Assembly (NCBI GenBank): GCA_018268395.1
Contig: JAFDWQ010000005.1
Location: 186,001-250,000, forward strand
Reading direction: 5' to 3'
DNA length: 64,000 nt
Source of the DNA: Armatimonadota bacterium
GTDB taxonomy: Bacteria > Armatimonadota > Fimbriimonadia > Fimbriimonadales > Fimbriimonadaceae
In this document: positions 52,853 through 57,703 of the stretch, piece after piece
How positions within the stretch are numbered: the first letter of the stretch is position 1
How the letters are laid out: every line of letters begins with the position of its first letter
The notes under the pieces: generated by a model
The model's database searches: none
The model's input: the letters and a program-made list of their open reading frames with translations, nothing else
What the model was told of the DNA's origin: nothing
Made by a program: the position numbers and the translations under genes

Positions 52853-53131
52853 ATGGCTGACAAAGTATTCAAGGCCTTGGCCGATCCGACGCGGAGGAAG
52901 ATCCTCCGGATCTTGAACGAGGGCGACAAGTCGGCGGGCGAGATCTCGGACAGGTTCGAGGTGACCGCCGCGACGATGTCGCACCACTTCAACGTCCTCA
53001 AAGACGCGGGTCTCGTCCAGGCCAAGAAGAACGGGACGTCGGTCATCTACAGTCTGGACACGACCGTCATCCAGGACGTGATGTCGGTGTTGTTCGAAGT
53101 GTTCGGACAGAAGACGGAGGTTCAAGAATGA
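52853..53131 (+). CDS. sdpR: ArsR/SmtB-family repressor, SdpR-like
   Basis: 92 residues. Winged helix: VFKALADPTRRKILRILNEGDKSAGEISDRFEVTAATMSHHFNVLKDAGLVQAKKNGTSVIYSL. The TMSHHFNVLKDAGLV helix with the ArsR-typical HLxxLxxAGLV reading is intact. No metal-binding ELCVCDL motif, which fits SdpR-type rather than metal sensors. ATGA overlap with the next gene, as in Bacillus sdpRI. Confidence 0.9.
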   Translation: MADKVFKALADPTRRKILRILNEGDKSAGEISDRFEVTAATMSHHFNVLKDAGLVQAKKNGTSVIYSLDTTVIQDVMSVLFEVFGQKTEVQE

Positions 53132-53775
53132 GACTGCGGACCCTGTTCCTCGGCGGTACCGGCATCGTCCTGCTGACGGTGCTCTATACGGCCCTAATGT
53201 ACGCCCGTTTGCCCGAAAGCATCGCCACCCATTGGGACATCCACGGGCGAGCGGACCAGTTTTCGCCACGGTTCTGGGGGGTCGTCTTCGGCCCGATCGT
53301 CCAAACGGGGATGCTCCTCCTGTTCCTCGTGCTGCCCTCATTGTCCCCGGAAAGGGCCAGATTGGAGGCGTCCGGTGACGTGTACGGAAAGGTCTGTCTG
53401 ACAGTCGTCGCGTTCATGGGCTTCGTCCAGGTCCTTATCGTCCAATCGGCGCTCGGCATGACGGACACGGCGAAGTGGATCGTTTGTAGCGTCTTAGTGT
53501 TGTTCGGTTACATCGGCAACATCATCACGAAGGCGAGGCGGAACTACTTTATGGGGATCAGGACGCCCTGGACCCTGGAGAGCGAGGACGTTTGGAACAG
53601 GACGCACCGCCTTGGGGGAAGGCTCATGGTCGCCGGCTCGATCGTCGGGCTCGTCCTGGTCTTCACCAACGCCCCGCTGTGGTCGGTCTTCGCCGTCATT
53701 CTCGTCGCGAGCCTGTGGCCTGTCGTCTATTCGTACCTGATCTATCGTCGGTCGAGCCGTCCTTACGGACTCTGA
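53128..53775 (+). CDS. sdpI: SdpI family protein (immunity/DUF1648-like)
   Basis: 215 residues, six membrane segments. DUF1648 domain YARLPESIATHWDIHGRADQF, and the SdpI-like YFMGIRTPWTLESEDVWNRTHRLGGRLMVAG in its second half. In Bacillus, SdpI gives immunity to the toxin SdpC and sequesters SdpR. No sdpC or sdpAB gene here, so it may be an orphan immunity or a signalling receptor for another organism's toxin. Confidence 0.9.
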   Translation: MRLRTLFLGGTGIVLLTVLYTALMYARLPESIATHWDIHGRADQFSPRFWGVVFGPIVQTGMLLLFLVLPSLSPERARLEASGDVYGKVCLTVVAFMGFVQVLIVQSALGMTDTAKWIVCSVLVLFGYIGNIITKARRNYFMGIRTPWTLESEDVWNRTHRLGGRLMVAGSIVGLVLVFTNAPLWSVFAVILVASLWPVVYSYLIYRRSSRPYGL

Positions 53776-54078
53776 TCACCGTCCCGCAGGCCCGAACCGA
53801 GACAGGAGCCGGGCGGGGAGCCCGGGATCGAGGACGAGCCAGAGGGACAGCGTTCCGACGACGGCCCAGAACGCGGCGACCACCAGCGGCGGTCCGAGGA
53901 CGCAACGAGTCCCTCTTTCGCCTTTGATGGTGGCAAGGACGTAGAAGACGGTCGCGGCAAAGGCCGCCACCGGCAGCGCGAACCTGCCGCAAACGAGAGC
54001 GACCGTCGCGCACTTGCAGAAGGTGAACGCGATCCCTTCGTAGACTTGGCCGGGAGTCTTGGTCGGGCCAGTCGTCAC
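53776..54078 (-). CDS. Small membrane protein (last gene of radical-SAM operon)
   Basis: 100 residues with three hydrophobic segments after a Cys motif FCKCATVALVC near the N-terminus. GTG start overlaps the preceding gene's TGA by four bases (GTGA), the strongest evidence that it is a real gene. No homology recognised. It is the fifth and last gene of the operon; its Cys motif could be part of metal binding with the two zinc-ribbon partners, but that is speculation. 3' end meets the convergent sdpI with no gap. Confidence 0.65.
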   Translation of the reverse strand: MTTGPTKTPGQVYEGIAFTFCKCATVALVCGRFALPVAAFAATVFYVLATIKGERGTRCVLGPPLVVAAFWAVVGTLSLWLVLDPGLPARLLSRFGPAGR

Positions 54079-54377
54079 TTCTTTCCGGACCTCACGATCA
54101 TCACGATAAAGAATACGGGAAGGAGGATGCCGAGCAGGCTGAGGACGGTCCAGACCGCATCGGTCCGCGTTGGCGACGTTCCGGCACTGAGGCCGGCCAA
54201 CAAGAGGAAGCAACCTCCCATCAAACCTGCGGGCAGTCCGACAAGGACGAGCAGGACGACCCACAAGGCGACCAAACCGCCTGTCGTCCGCCCCCAGCCG
54301 CAAACGGAGCACGAGGCATTGCCGATCGGGATGGAGTTGCCGCATTTCGGGCAGACGCGGTCGGGCGGGGGGATCAT
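54075..54377 (-). CDS. Zinc-ribbon membrane protein
   Basis: 100 residues. N-terminal zinc ribbon VCPKCGNSIPIGNASCSVCGWG (CxxC...CxxC), then two membrane segments (ALWVVLLVLVGLPAGLMGG and LLGILLPVFFIVMIV). Overlaps both neighbours by four bases. Function unknown; zinc-ribbon-TM proteins are often assembly or regulatory partners of a membrane enzyme. Confidence 0.75.
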   Translation of the reverse strand: MIPPPDRVCPKCGNSIPIGNASCSVCGWGRTTGGLVALWVVLLVLVGLPAGLMGGCFLLLAGLSAGTSPTRTDAVWTVLSLLGILLPVFFIVMIVRSGKK

Positions 54378-54583
54378 GGCTTCACCTGTCGTCTTTCAAC
54401 CTGTCGCGAACGAACCGCCATTTTGAACCTTACGACTTTCTGGCCCTGTTCCAGGACCGTCGCCGTACCGAGCGACATGGTCCGAAAAGTACGCCTGGGG
54501 TTTCGGCTACAGAAGGGGCATCCGTCCTCCTGAGGGACAAGGGTGCTTCCGCACCGGTGGCAGCGTTCATTCGACCGGCTCAA
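54374..54583 (-). CDS. Small zinc-ribbon protein
   Basis: 69 residues: CHRCGSTLVPQEDGCPFC at residues 8-25 is a four-Cys zinc ribbon; the remainder is Arg/Lys/Val-rich. TTG start overlaps the Lgt-like gene by 17 bases and its end overlaps the next gene by four. Role unknown. Confidence 0.7.
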   Translation of the reverse strand: MSRSNERCHRCGSTLVPQEDGCPFCSRNPRRTFRTMSLGTATVLEQGQKVVRFKMAVRSRQVERRQVKP

Positions 54584-55262
54584 GGGAACGCCTCCTTCGG
54601 ACGGTATGGACGATCAAGAACGCAGCGCCGGCCAGCGCCGTCTGAAGGGAGGCGAGCTGCATGGCACCGAACGGTCCGAGGAGGTGGTCGCGATCGCGGA
54701 AAAACTCCTGGCCGAAGCGTCCGAGTCCCCAAACGGCCAAGTACACATGAAACGACGCTCCCGGATAGGGCGTCCGGTTACGGACAGCGAGGAGCCCGAT
54801 CGTCAGGGCCGCCGCGAACGCCGCCGAATACAGCTGGGCGGGATGACGGTCACATCCGCCTTGGTGAACGCTCCAAGGGCCGTCGAACGGGCCTCCCAGG
54901 CAACACGGGTTCAGGAAGCATCCGATCCGACCGACCGCCTCGCCAGCCGCCAACGCGGGCGCGACGGCGTCGCCTAACGACGACTTTAAACCAAGCTTCG
55001 CCTTGACCGCTTCGAAGCCGATCCAGCCTGCCAAGATCCCTCCGAGAAGGGCACGCCCACCGGCGGAGGGGTCGAGCGCCGTCGGGGCCGCGCCCTGGAC
55101 GAAAGCCTGGGTGACCTTGGCTCCGACGATGCCGCAGACGAACGTGACCACGGCGAGCAAGACCGTGTGGTCGGCCCGAAGGCCCCGGCGACGGGCAAGG
55201 AGCCAGAAGACGATGGCCCCGGTCGCATAGCCCAGTCCCGTGAACACCGCGCCGGCCGTCAT
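54567..55262 (-). CDS. Lgt-like prolipoprotein diacylglyceryl transferase family protein
   Basis: 231 residues, shorter than E. coli Lgt (291). Lgt-type motifs: GRIGCFLNPCCLGGPFDG (GRIGxFxNGxxxG signature, Arg of the transfer site), RHPAQLYSA and YLAVWGLGRFGQEFFRD. Authentic Lgt attaches diacylglycerol from phosphatidylglycerol to the lipobox Cys. The first ~40 residues of the classic enzyme are missing and the gene sits in an operon with a radical SAM protein, so the substrate may differ. ATG overlaps the upstream stop by four bases. Confidence 0.85.
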   Translation of the reverse strand: MTAGAVFTGLGYATGAIVFWLLARRRGLRADHTVLLAVVTFVCGIVGAKVTQAFVQGAAPTALDPSAGGRALLGGILAGWIGFEAVKAKLGLKSSLGDAVAPALAAGEAVGRIGCFLNPCCLGGPFDGPWSVHQGGCDRHPAQLYSAAFAAALTIGLLAVRNRTPYPGASFHVYLAVWGLGRFGQEFFRDRDHLLGPFGAMQLASLQTALAGAAFLIVHTVRRRRSLEPVE

Positions 55263-56806
55263 GTCACGGTCCTGAGCGGCGTGAGCCCGTCCCGGTCCGG
55301 AAAGTCGGTCGATTCCGGGAAGAGCCACCTCCAGCAGAAGGGTGTCCGACGGGGGTCTTCTTCGAACGAACCCGTGTGGACGCAGCACTGCCGGATGCGG
55401 GCTTCATGGAACGTGTGCGCGTCCATGAACATCTTGACCGTCATGCGGAACGTTCGCCGAGCGAGATCGGCGATCATCGCTTCGGCTTTTTTGGCCTGTG
55501 CCAAGCCGAGGAGTTCGACGACTCCCGGGACACACCCGCACAGGCGGAACAGGTCTCCCGCTAAGGCCAGCGACCCCGTCTTTTGCGATTCGGAGAACAC
55601 CCGGGCCAAGGCTCCGTCCCGAACGAGCGCTTTGACGGCGTCGGACGCGTCTTCGAAACTGATCGTATTGGCGGCAAGATGGATCCAGCTCTTCAGCTCG
55701 TCGCGTCCGATCGTGTCCGGTAAAGACTTCCAAGCCCCCTGTTTGTCCTTCAAGTAGTAGGCGATATCGCAACAGTCGCGATGCGAACAGGGAAGCGGGA
55801 CGAAATCGACCGCCTTGACGGCCCCTTCGGTCTGGCGTTCCAGTCGTTTGAGGACGCCCGTCGGCGTCGCTCGGTCCATGGGGTCGATCTCGTCACTGCG
55901 ACCAGACCCGAAAACCGGCTGGAAGGCAAGGCCGACACAGGACGGCGTCGACATCGCCAGACGGGCGACTTCGCCCACCTCGTCTTCGTTCACGCCCCGT
56001 TTGACCGTCATGACCAAGGTCGTCGGGACGCCGGTTTCGCTCAGCCGCGCCAGGGCCGCGAGCTTTTCGGAAGCCAAGTCCTGACCTCGGAGCGCCAGAT
56101 AGGTGGAGGGCCGCAGGCCGTCGAACTGCAGATAGGCTTCGACCCGGTCTTTGAACCGGGCGAGCTGGACGGCGAAGCCATCGTCTCGGGCGATCCTGCG
56201 GCCGTTGGTGTTGAGAAGGATCCGGGTCACGGGCTTTGAGGCGGTCGATTCGAGGATTTCTCCTAGGTCGCGCCGGACGGTGGGCTCTCCACCGCTCAAC
56301 ATGAGGACGCCCAGCCGTCCGGCCTCTCGGTCGGTCACGGTATCGATCGTCCGGCAGATCTCGTCGATCGACGGCGTCTCGATCGGTGGCGCCGCCGATC
56401 CAGGGGGCAGGGCCGAGGCGTAGCACGTCGGGCAATTCAGGTTGCAGTGTTCCGTGACGTTGAGCAAGAGGATGCACGTGTGCTGGCCGTGTCCGGAGGG
56501 AAGTCCGTCCTGGTAGCCCTCGGGAAAGGCTCGGTCGTTTCCCGGTCGGTCGGGAACGACCGTCGACGTCGGGGCCGACCAACCGTGACGGGCCTTCCAG
56601 AGTGCCGAGTCCTCCTCGTACAGGCTTTCGGTCTCTCCGTGCTCGCTGCAAAAGCGACGCATCCACACGGAGCCGTCTCGGCTGACCAACATCCCGTCCT
56701 TCCATGTCCTCGGGTCGTCGGGACGCAGGATCCTGGCGGCTGCGCACGCCGGGCACACGGTCTTCGTGTACTCTTCGATCACGTACGGGCGGAGGGGAAG
56801 GGGCAT
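55259..56806 (-). CDS. Radical SAM protein of the tetraether-lipid-synthase (Tes/MJ0619, COG1964) family
   Basis: 515 residues. N-terminal rubredoxin-like Cys set KTVCPAC (18,21) and FCSEHGE (53) as in archaeal Tes, then QHTCILLLNVTEHCNLNCPTCYA with the radical SAM Cys 121, 125 and 128. GGEPT lies in MLSGGEPTVRRD. Further Cys clusters: CSHRDCC near 340, LCGC near 425, QCC and FCW near the C-terminus (auxiliary clusters). The DCGLC-type linker that precedes QHTC in Tes lacks its Cys residues here. Tes joins phytanyl chains in archaeal membranes; bacterial homologs act on fatty chains. First gene of a five-gene operon with an Lgt-like enzyme. Confidence 0.85.
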   Translation of the reverse strand: MPLPLRPYVIEEYTKTVCPACAAARILRPDDPRTWKDGMLVSRDGSVWMRRFCSEHGETESLYEEDSALWKARHGWSAPTSTVVPDRPGNDRAFPEGYQDGLPSGHGQHTCILLLNVTEHCNLNCPTCYASALPPGSAAPPIETPSIDEICRTIDTVTDREAGRLGVLMLSGGEPTVRRDLGEILESTASKPVTRILLNTNGRRIARDDGFAVQLARFKDRVEAYLQFDGLRPSTYLALRGQDLASEKLAALARLSETGVPTTLVMTVKRGVNEDEVGEVARLAMSTPSCVGLAFQPVFGSGRSDEIDPMDRATPTGVLKRLERQTEGAVKAVDFVPLPCSHRDCCDIAYYLKDKQGAWKSLPDTIGRDELKSWIHLAANTISFEDASDAVKALVRDGALARVFSESQKTGSLALAGDLFRLCGCVPGVVELLGLAQAKKAEAMIADLARRTFRMTVKMFMDAHTFHEARIRQCCVHTGSFEEDPRRTPFCWRWLFPESTDFPDRDGLTPLRTVT

Positions 56807-56965: not shown

Positions 56966-57703
56966 ATGCAACGTTTCAGGTCGCTTCTGGTGTTCGTCGG
57001 CGCTTTCGCCGCGACGGCCGCGTGGTCCCAGAACATCGAGGGCGTCACGTTCGCCAACAAGCCCGGCCAGGTCTTCGCCCCGTTACGACAGACGTGCCAG
57101 AGCCTCGGCCTCGTCGTCGAGTGGGACGATACGACGAGCGAAGTCGTCGTCGGGGAAAAGCGCTTCAAAGAGCGCGATTTCCGGACGTTGTTCGATGGGA
57201 CGAAGCTGGTGCCGTTACGCGACCTCGAGAAGTTCGGCGTCACCGTCCACTATGACGACGGCTCCGATTCGGCCGTCTTGTCCTACCAGGACAAAGAAAC
57301 GACCGTCAGTTTGGGCCAGAAGCGGGTCGAGATCAGCATCGACGATCAGACCCTGCGGGCGTGGCAAGGCCAGATCTTGGTCATGGAGACGAACGTCAGC
57401 ACCGGCCGACGAGGGCACACGACGCCGAAGGGCAGCTTTAAAGCCGGTCCTGTCAAGACGCGCATGCACTATTCGCGCCTCTACGACAACGCTCCGATGC
57501 CGTACAGCGTCCAGGTCAACGGCGACGTCTTCATCCATGGCTATCACAGCGTGCCGAAATATCCGGCTTCGCACGGATGCATCCGGATGCCGCTGTACGG
57601 TCGGAACGCCGCCCGGTACTTCTTCGACTGGGTCGACAAAGGAACCCCGGTCGATATCCTGGGGGACTTTGCCGAGGTCTCGGCCAAGTCCGGTAACCAC
57701 TGA
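56966..57703 (+). CDS. L,D-transpeptidase with N-terminal copper-amine-oxidase-N-like domain
   Basis: 245 residues. Signal peptide (MQRFRSLLVFVGAFAATAAWSQ). Residues 28-105: VFAPLRQTCQSLGLVVEWDDTTSEVVV and LVPLRDLEKFGVTVHYD, the Cu_amine_oxidN1 repeat that often binds cell wall. YkuD catalytic domain from about 120: VFIHGYHSVPKYPASHGCIRMP holds the catalytic Cys with its His. Makes 3-3 cross-links in peptidoglycan or anchors proteins to it. Confidence 0.93.
   Translation: MQRFRSLLVFVGAFAATAAWSQNIEGVTFANKPGQVFAPLRQTCQSLGLVVEWDDTTSEVVVGEKRFKERDFRTLFDGTKLVPLRDLEKFGVTVHYDDGSDSAVLSYQDKETTVSLGQKRVEISIDDQTLRAWQGQILVMETNVSTGRRGHTTPKGSFKAGPVKTRMHYSRLYDNAPMPYSVQVNGDVFIHGYHSVPKYPASHGCIRMPLYGRNAARYFFDWVDKGTPVDILGDFAEVSAKSGNH

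Follow-up and report, generated by a model that had tools for sequence, protein, structure and literature searches.

What might a bacterium do with an operon in which a relative of the tetraether synthase Tes is encoded next to a homologue of the diacylglyceryl transferase Lgt? The question is raised by a five-gene set on the minus strand of a 64,000-nucleotide stretch of an Armatimonadota genome of the family Fimbriimonadaceae (GCA_018268395.1, contig JAFDWQ010000005.1, positions 186,001 to 250,000; hereafter the window). The set runs from 56806 to 53776 of the window, and re-derivation of the reading frames bore out the coordinates, the strand and the consecutive overlaps of 4, 17, 4 and 4 bases that an earlier note on this DNA had described. 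Our favoured though tentative reading, with reactions deduced from sequence, is that the operon is a dedicated cassette for lipid transfer and lipid-tail modification that acts on small membrane proteins. Recurrence of the set in dozens of genomes, together with the co-occurrence of its fifth and first genes, places it beyond chance.

The first gene (55259..56806, minus strand) encodes a 515-residue radical S-adenosylmethionine (SAM) protein (PF04055, 69 bits) that sequence comparison assigns to the Tes/TrsS superfamily. The profile built from 35 relatives matches the glycerol dialkyl glycerol tetraether (GDGT) synthase whose structure has been solved (7TOL), at 7.5e-113 over nearly the whole chain. 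With Tes, or GDGT-MAS (MJ0619, 7TOL, NF045702), the window protein shares the domain order, the rubredoxin-type N-terminus and equivalents of Gln268 and Arg275. The radical SAM cluster motif C121-x3-C125-x2-C128 (56423..56446, minus strand) is invariant across 35 aligned homologues, and alignment to 7TOL, whose cluster ligands are known (PMC9433317), shows that the C-terminal auxiliary-cluster cysteines (C345, C474, C475 and C491) are retained. The same is true of the adenosine-contact positions R240, Q296 and R303. At its N-terminus lies a rubredoxin-type arrangement, C18-x2-C21 ... C53-x2-H56, which scores 33.5 bits against the Pfam HMPTM zinc ribbon (cut-off 27). Where 7TOL has the N-terminal cluster residues C73, C77 and C80, the window protein has E, D and P, and cysteine occurs at these positions in 0% of the whole subclade. 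The cluster motif, the rubredoxin-like N-terminus and the Cys-less linker before the core had all been read correctly in the earlier note. A further motif, C423-x-C425 (55532..55540, minus strand), is specific to the clade, being 89-100% conserved among its Armatimonadota and Chloroflexota members and present in 0% of other groups; Tes and TrsS-grade proteins lack it.

That the protein is Tes-type, as the earlier note had proposed, holds for the superfamily but not for the enzyme itself, and from its sequence we conclude that it is not a Tes. It scores 200.5 bits against the Tes equivalog model (NF045702), for which the cut-off is 450, and it lacks Met439 and Tyr459 of 7TOL, to which we return below. 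In a 72-row tree, with an arbitrary root and some long rows, the window protein and its orthologues form a bacterial clade of 42 rows that is supported at 100/98 and does not include MJ0619 or L165. This clade nests in one of 50 rows (95/94) whose members, where enough flank is available, are mostly linked to an Lgt-like gene. The Methanocaldococcus jannaschii Tes and one Chloroflexota Tes above the cut-off both fall outside the clade of the window protein, so the placement in a tree, which the earlier note had put forward as a check of Tes membership, speaks against it. TrsS-like proteins linked to a methyltransferase form a separate clade with no Lgt neighbour; its sister is a Chloroflexota group that is smaller and Lgt-linked. 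In the sister group comprising L112, L113, L114, L116 and L188, the N-terminal cluster cysteines are kept, whereas of the four cysteines of the C-terminal auxiliary cluster only one remains, the reverse of the pattern in the window's group. One locus (L174, genome G573) encodes two divergent radical SAM proteins of the superfamily, of 699 and 847 residues, and the one included in the tree sits on a very long branch.

Could the protein instead resemble TrsS and other MJ0619 relatives in function, as a methylase, or as some other enzyme without coupling activity, whose substrate is a small molecule or a lipid head, with the Lgt link reflecting a different final acceptor? The TrsS model (NF045646) does score above the Tes model (245 versus 200 bits), and in a related clade the partner is a DVU_1556-type methyltransferase. 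Yet 245 bits is half of the TrsS cut-off of 490, and the window protein differs from TrsS, with which it shares the superfamily and a comparable bit score, in lacking the N-cluster cysteines. We rejected classification by best NCBIfam match, which would have put TrsS first: since the TrsS model gives 345 bits on a true Tes and also outranks the Tes model in several other groups, the order of the two scores is uninformative. The DVU_1556-type methyltransferase is likewise missing from the window locus and from every Lgt-linked locus examined, and is found in the separate, Lgt-free clade. A non-coupling enzyme is thus an improbable explanation.

The second gene (54567..55262, minus strand, ATG start) encodes a membrane protein of 231 residues, and the Lgt-family partner claimed for the radical SAM protein proved sound. 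It matches PF01790 at 113.7 bits (cut-off 24.9), and its family profile gives a full-length match to Escherichia coli Lgt (5AZB) at 4.9e-32. Residues R143, R239, E243 and R246 of the E. coli enzyme are retained as R112, R182, E186 and R189, and the HPxQLY motif is shared. Unlike Lgt proper, it falls below the lgt equivalog cut-off (TIGR00544, 53.4 bits against 118.9) and carries a GC...NPCCLG signature. A similar signature is present in the housekeeping Lgt that the same genome encodes elsewhere. The sequence evidence thus identifies the 231-residue protein as a second, cassette-specific Lgt paralogue.

The pairing of these two genes is widespread. The radical SAM protein is present in 48 of 291 Armatimonadota genomes (E < 1e-40), and in the window's subclade an Lgt-like gene lies beside or close to it at each of the 22 Armatimonadota loci where the flank is usable. 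Most loci of the sister groups, in Armatimonadota and Chloroflexota, also carry an Lgt-like neighbour; at two exceptions (L187 and L162) the flank is intact yet the pairing is lacking. The earlier note had raised the recurrence of the gene order in other Fimbriimonadia, and it is found both there and beyond, in several Armatimonadota families and in Chloroflexota. The cassette occurs, too, in a genome assigned to the cultured type strain Fimbriimonas ginsengisoli Gsoil 348. As a control, we considered 30 Desulfobacterota loci, 10 of them above the Tes cut-off and most others beside a DVU_1556-type methyltransferase; where flank exists, no Lgt gene lies within about 1.4 kb of any of them. True Tes genes of Desulfobacterota thus differ from the window gene in having no Lgt neighbour, a further argument against Tes identity. 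The cassette sets a large, Lgt-partnered group of bacterial Tes relatives apart from true Tes and from TrsS.

In one Armatimonadota subgroup (L113:7749-8844 and L188:7310-8399), two further proteins belong to the cassette: a membrane methyltransferase resembling ICMT/PEMT, and a DUF4395 protein whose C-terminus is rich in Cys. Lipidated cysteines are the substrates of ICMT-type enzymes, and phospholipids those of PEMT-type enzymes. The additions fit either kind of substrate alike.

A free-lipid pathway is the alternative that ranks close behind our favoured reading, although we still consider it rather doubtful. Here the Tes-like enzyme would couple the acyl tails of phospholipids to give membrane-spanning lipids, the Lgt paralogue would move diacylglyceryl to a non-protein acceptor in a head-group exchange, and the small proteins would do no more than recruit or regulate the enzymes. 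Kinship with GDGT synthase along the full length of the radical SAM protein argues for such a pathway. So does the distribution in Chloroflexota, where the Lgt partner is found not only in the window-type group but also beside a Tes-grade group with scores of up to 359 bits. Moreover, correlations are reported to have led to the proposal that overly branched GDGTs come from Armatimonadota and Chloroflexi (PMC11868695). Against it, the true Tes genes of Desulfobacterota need no Lgt neighbour, and two properties of the small proteins would be left unexplained: their tandem multiplication and the G-x-Cys common to proteins that are otherwise dissimilar.

These small proteins are central to the reading of the operon as a protein-lipidation cassette. 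The fourth gene (54075..54377, minus strand) encodes P0004, a protein of 100 residues in which a zinc ribbon is followed by a two-helix membrane hairpin (hydrophobic segments 35-53 and 77-95), and which is a candidate lipidation substrate. The outer end of its first helix carries a divergent lipobox, P-x4-G-G-C (residues 49-56; 54210..54233, minus strand), in which P49, G54 and C56 are at least 90% conserved in 14 homologues. From the flanking charges and the positive-inside rule, the motif Cys is predicted to lie at the outer membrane face, where Lgt works. The Pro-x4-Gly-small-Cys motif occurs in the first helix of 17 of 49 homologues, against a shuffle mean of 0.26; a PS51257-like lipobox (G/A/S at -1) is found in 19 of the 49 against a shuffle mean of 3.7. 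The stronger feature is G at -2. A Cys placed in a lipobox-like position of a hydrophobic helix was present in 72 of 84 cassette small membrane proteins and in 24 of 71 control membrane open reading frames (ORFs), a suggestive enrichment rather than proof, as the control set is crude and the P0004 members were gathered by homology. G occupies -2 at 42 of the 72 sites. The sites resemble a lipoprotein lipobox in that a hydrophobic helix with positive flanks has the Cys at its outer end, but they favour Gly at -2 rather than -1, and the helix is internal, following a cytosolic zinc ribbon or other domain.

Zinc-ribbon hairpin proteins occur in 0 to 8 tandem copies per cassette, between the Lgt and P0005 genes, and are mostly confined to cassettes; matches elsewhere in eight genomes are weak (at most 37 bits). 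The counterparts in Chloroflexota and other groups have a helical domain, HEAT-like repeats or nothing where the zinc ribbon would be, and the last helix still ends in G-x-Cys or similar. Chloroflexota loci L155, L160 and L034-L036 each encode one or several membrane proteins whose N-terminal domain is helical and repeat-like (IRENRxxYTREAIRxQLxxAGH) and belongs to no Pfam family, and the longer of these proteins have an outer C-terminal domain beyond the G-x-Cys helix. The zinc-ribbon proteins, cast as helpers in the earlier note, look more like candidate substrates: they are variable, are multiplied in tandem and bear a transmembrane Cys in a lipobox-like setting.

The same arrangement of tandem, fast-diverging small ORFs (0 to 8) beside a radical SAM gene might suggest peptide maturation, in which the enzyme would modify the small zinc-ribbon proteins in the manner of ribosomal peptide natural products. 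This seems very unlikely, given that Pfam and NCBIfam scans found no SPASM or precursor-recognition family at cut-off, that the full-length relative of the enzyme is a lipid enzyme (7TOL), that the small proteins are membrane hairpins and not leader-core peptides, and that the Chloroflexota versions have unrelated N-termini.

The last gene (53776..54078, minus strand, GTG start) encodes P0005, a small membrane protein of 100 residues belonging to a family of about 90 residues, in which C21 (F-C-K) and C59 (R-C) are invariant in an alignment of 21 sequences. P0005 is found in 37 of the 291 Armatimonadota genomes, 33 of which also hold the radical SAM gene (Fisher p = 1.6e-27, uncorrected for phylogeny). 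In the other four, P0005 lies near a contig end or in a cut-off cassette, and one of these genomes has a radical SAM fragment. Profile comparison of P0005 with DUF4395 was weak (7.8% probability).

From the observed homologies, conserved residues, linkage, co-occurrence and common G-x-Cys, we infer a donor, an acceptor, a pair of reactions and their order for the lipidation cassette. In the first step, the Lgt paralogue would take diacylglyceryl from phosphatidylglycerol at the outer membrane face and transfer it to the small partner proteins, at the conserved Cys that stands at the outer end of a transmembrane helix; these proteins are zinc-ribbon hairpins here and have other N-terminal domains in Chloroflexota. 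In the second, the Tes-like radical SAM enzyme would operate from the cytosolic face and abstract hydrogen from acyl-chain termini, so that tails of the same lipid pool are coupled or otherwise modified. This would yield a protein whose lipid anchor is altered and possibly spans the membrane. As a third element, the two-Cys protein P0005 would serve as a near-constant accessory, perhaps in redox or assembly. To the bacterial membrane-spanning lipid synthase Mss (PMC13274423), the likeness would lie in the possible job, the coupling of bacterial acyl tails.

Several observations weigh against this proposal. In the radical SAM protein, Met439 and Tyr459 of 7TOL, which are invariant in archaeal Tes (PMC9433317), are replaced by Lys and Thr. 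Because archaeal enzymes mutated at either position keep activity (PMC9433317), these replacements do not exclude Tes-like chemistry. His103, which is essential in E. coli Lgt (PMC4728403), is Leu in the 231-residue protein. We considered whether this signals loss of Lgt activity and dismissed the idea, since the housekeeping Lgt of the same genome also lacks His103, which makes its absence uninformative. Structure predictions for the radical SAM and Lgt-like proteins, made from shallow alignments, were of low confidence, with predicted local distance difference test (pLDDT) values of 48 and 53. Finally, about half of the candidate Cys sites have no G/A/S at -1 and are for this reason not canonical lipoboxes, and some hairpin paralogues have Leu in place of the motif Cys.

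The third ORF of the operon (54374..54583, minus strand, TTG start) would encode a 69-residue zinc-ribbon protein with two CxxC pairs, by reading, and no transmembrane segment. It matched no family above cut-off in a scan of the domain library, and a homologue was found in none of the other cassettes examined; we therefore left it out of the conserved cassette and doubt that it is a real gene in its own right. On the plus strand, convergent with the operon, 52853-53775 encodes an ArsR-type regulator and, after a 4-base overlap, an SdpI/DUF1648 membrane protein, an SdpR-SdpI-like pair. Divergent from the operon, at about 56966-57703 on the plus strand, is a putative L,D-transpeptidase gene, so named from its reading (HGYHSVPKYPASHGCIRMP). 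The 160-base gap that it shares with the operon contains a good sigma-70-like site.

The conserved gene set looks like an undescribed membrane-modification system in two phyla, and among open-licence papers, whose coverage is incomplete, we found no link between Tes, or radical SAM enzymes, and Lgt. Palaeoclimate proxies in wide use are based on the membrane-spanning lipids of bacteria, and the many bacterial Tes homologues have been proposed as makers of branched tetraethers, a role that is unproven (PMC8941075; PMC11868695). The cassette might, although this is conjectural, represent a third functional class of the Tes/TrsS superfamily, in which an Lgt paralogue lipidates an internal G-x-Cys of dedicated small proteins and a Tes-like enzyme joins or remodels the attached tails to give membrane-spanning or unusual protein anchors. 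For one large group of bacterial Tes relatives it points to a specific partner enzyme and to proteins that may be the substrates, and its presence in the cultured F. ginsengisoli strain makes the question accessible at the bench.

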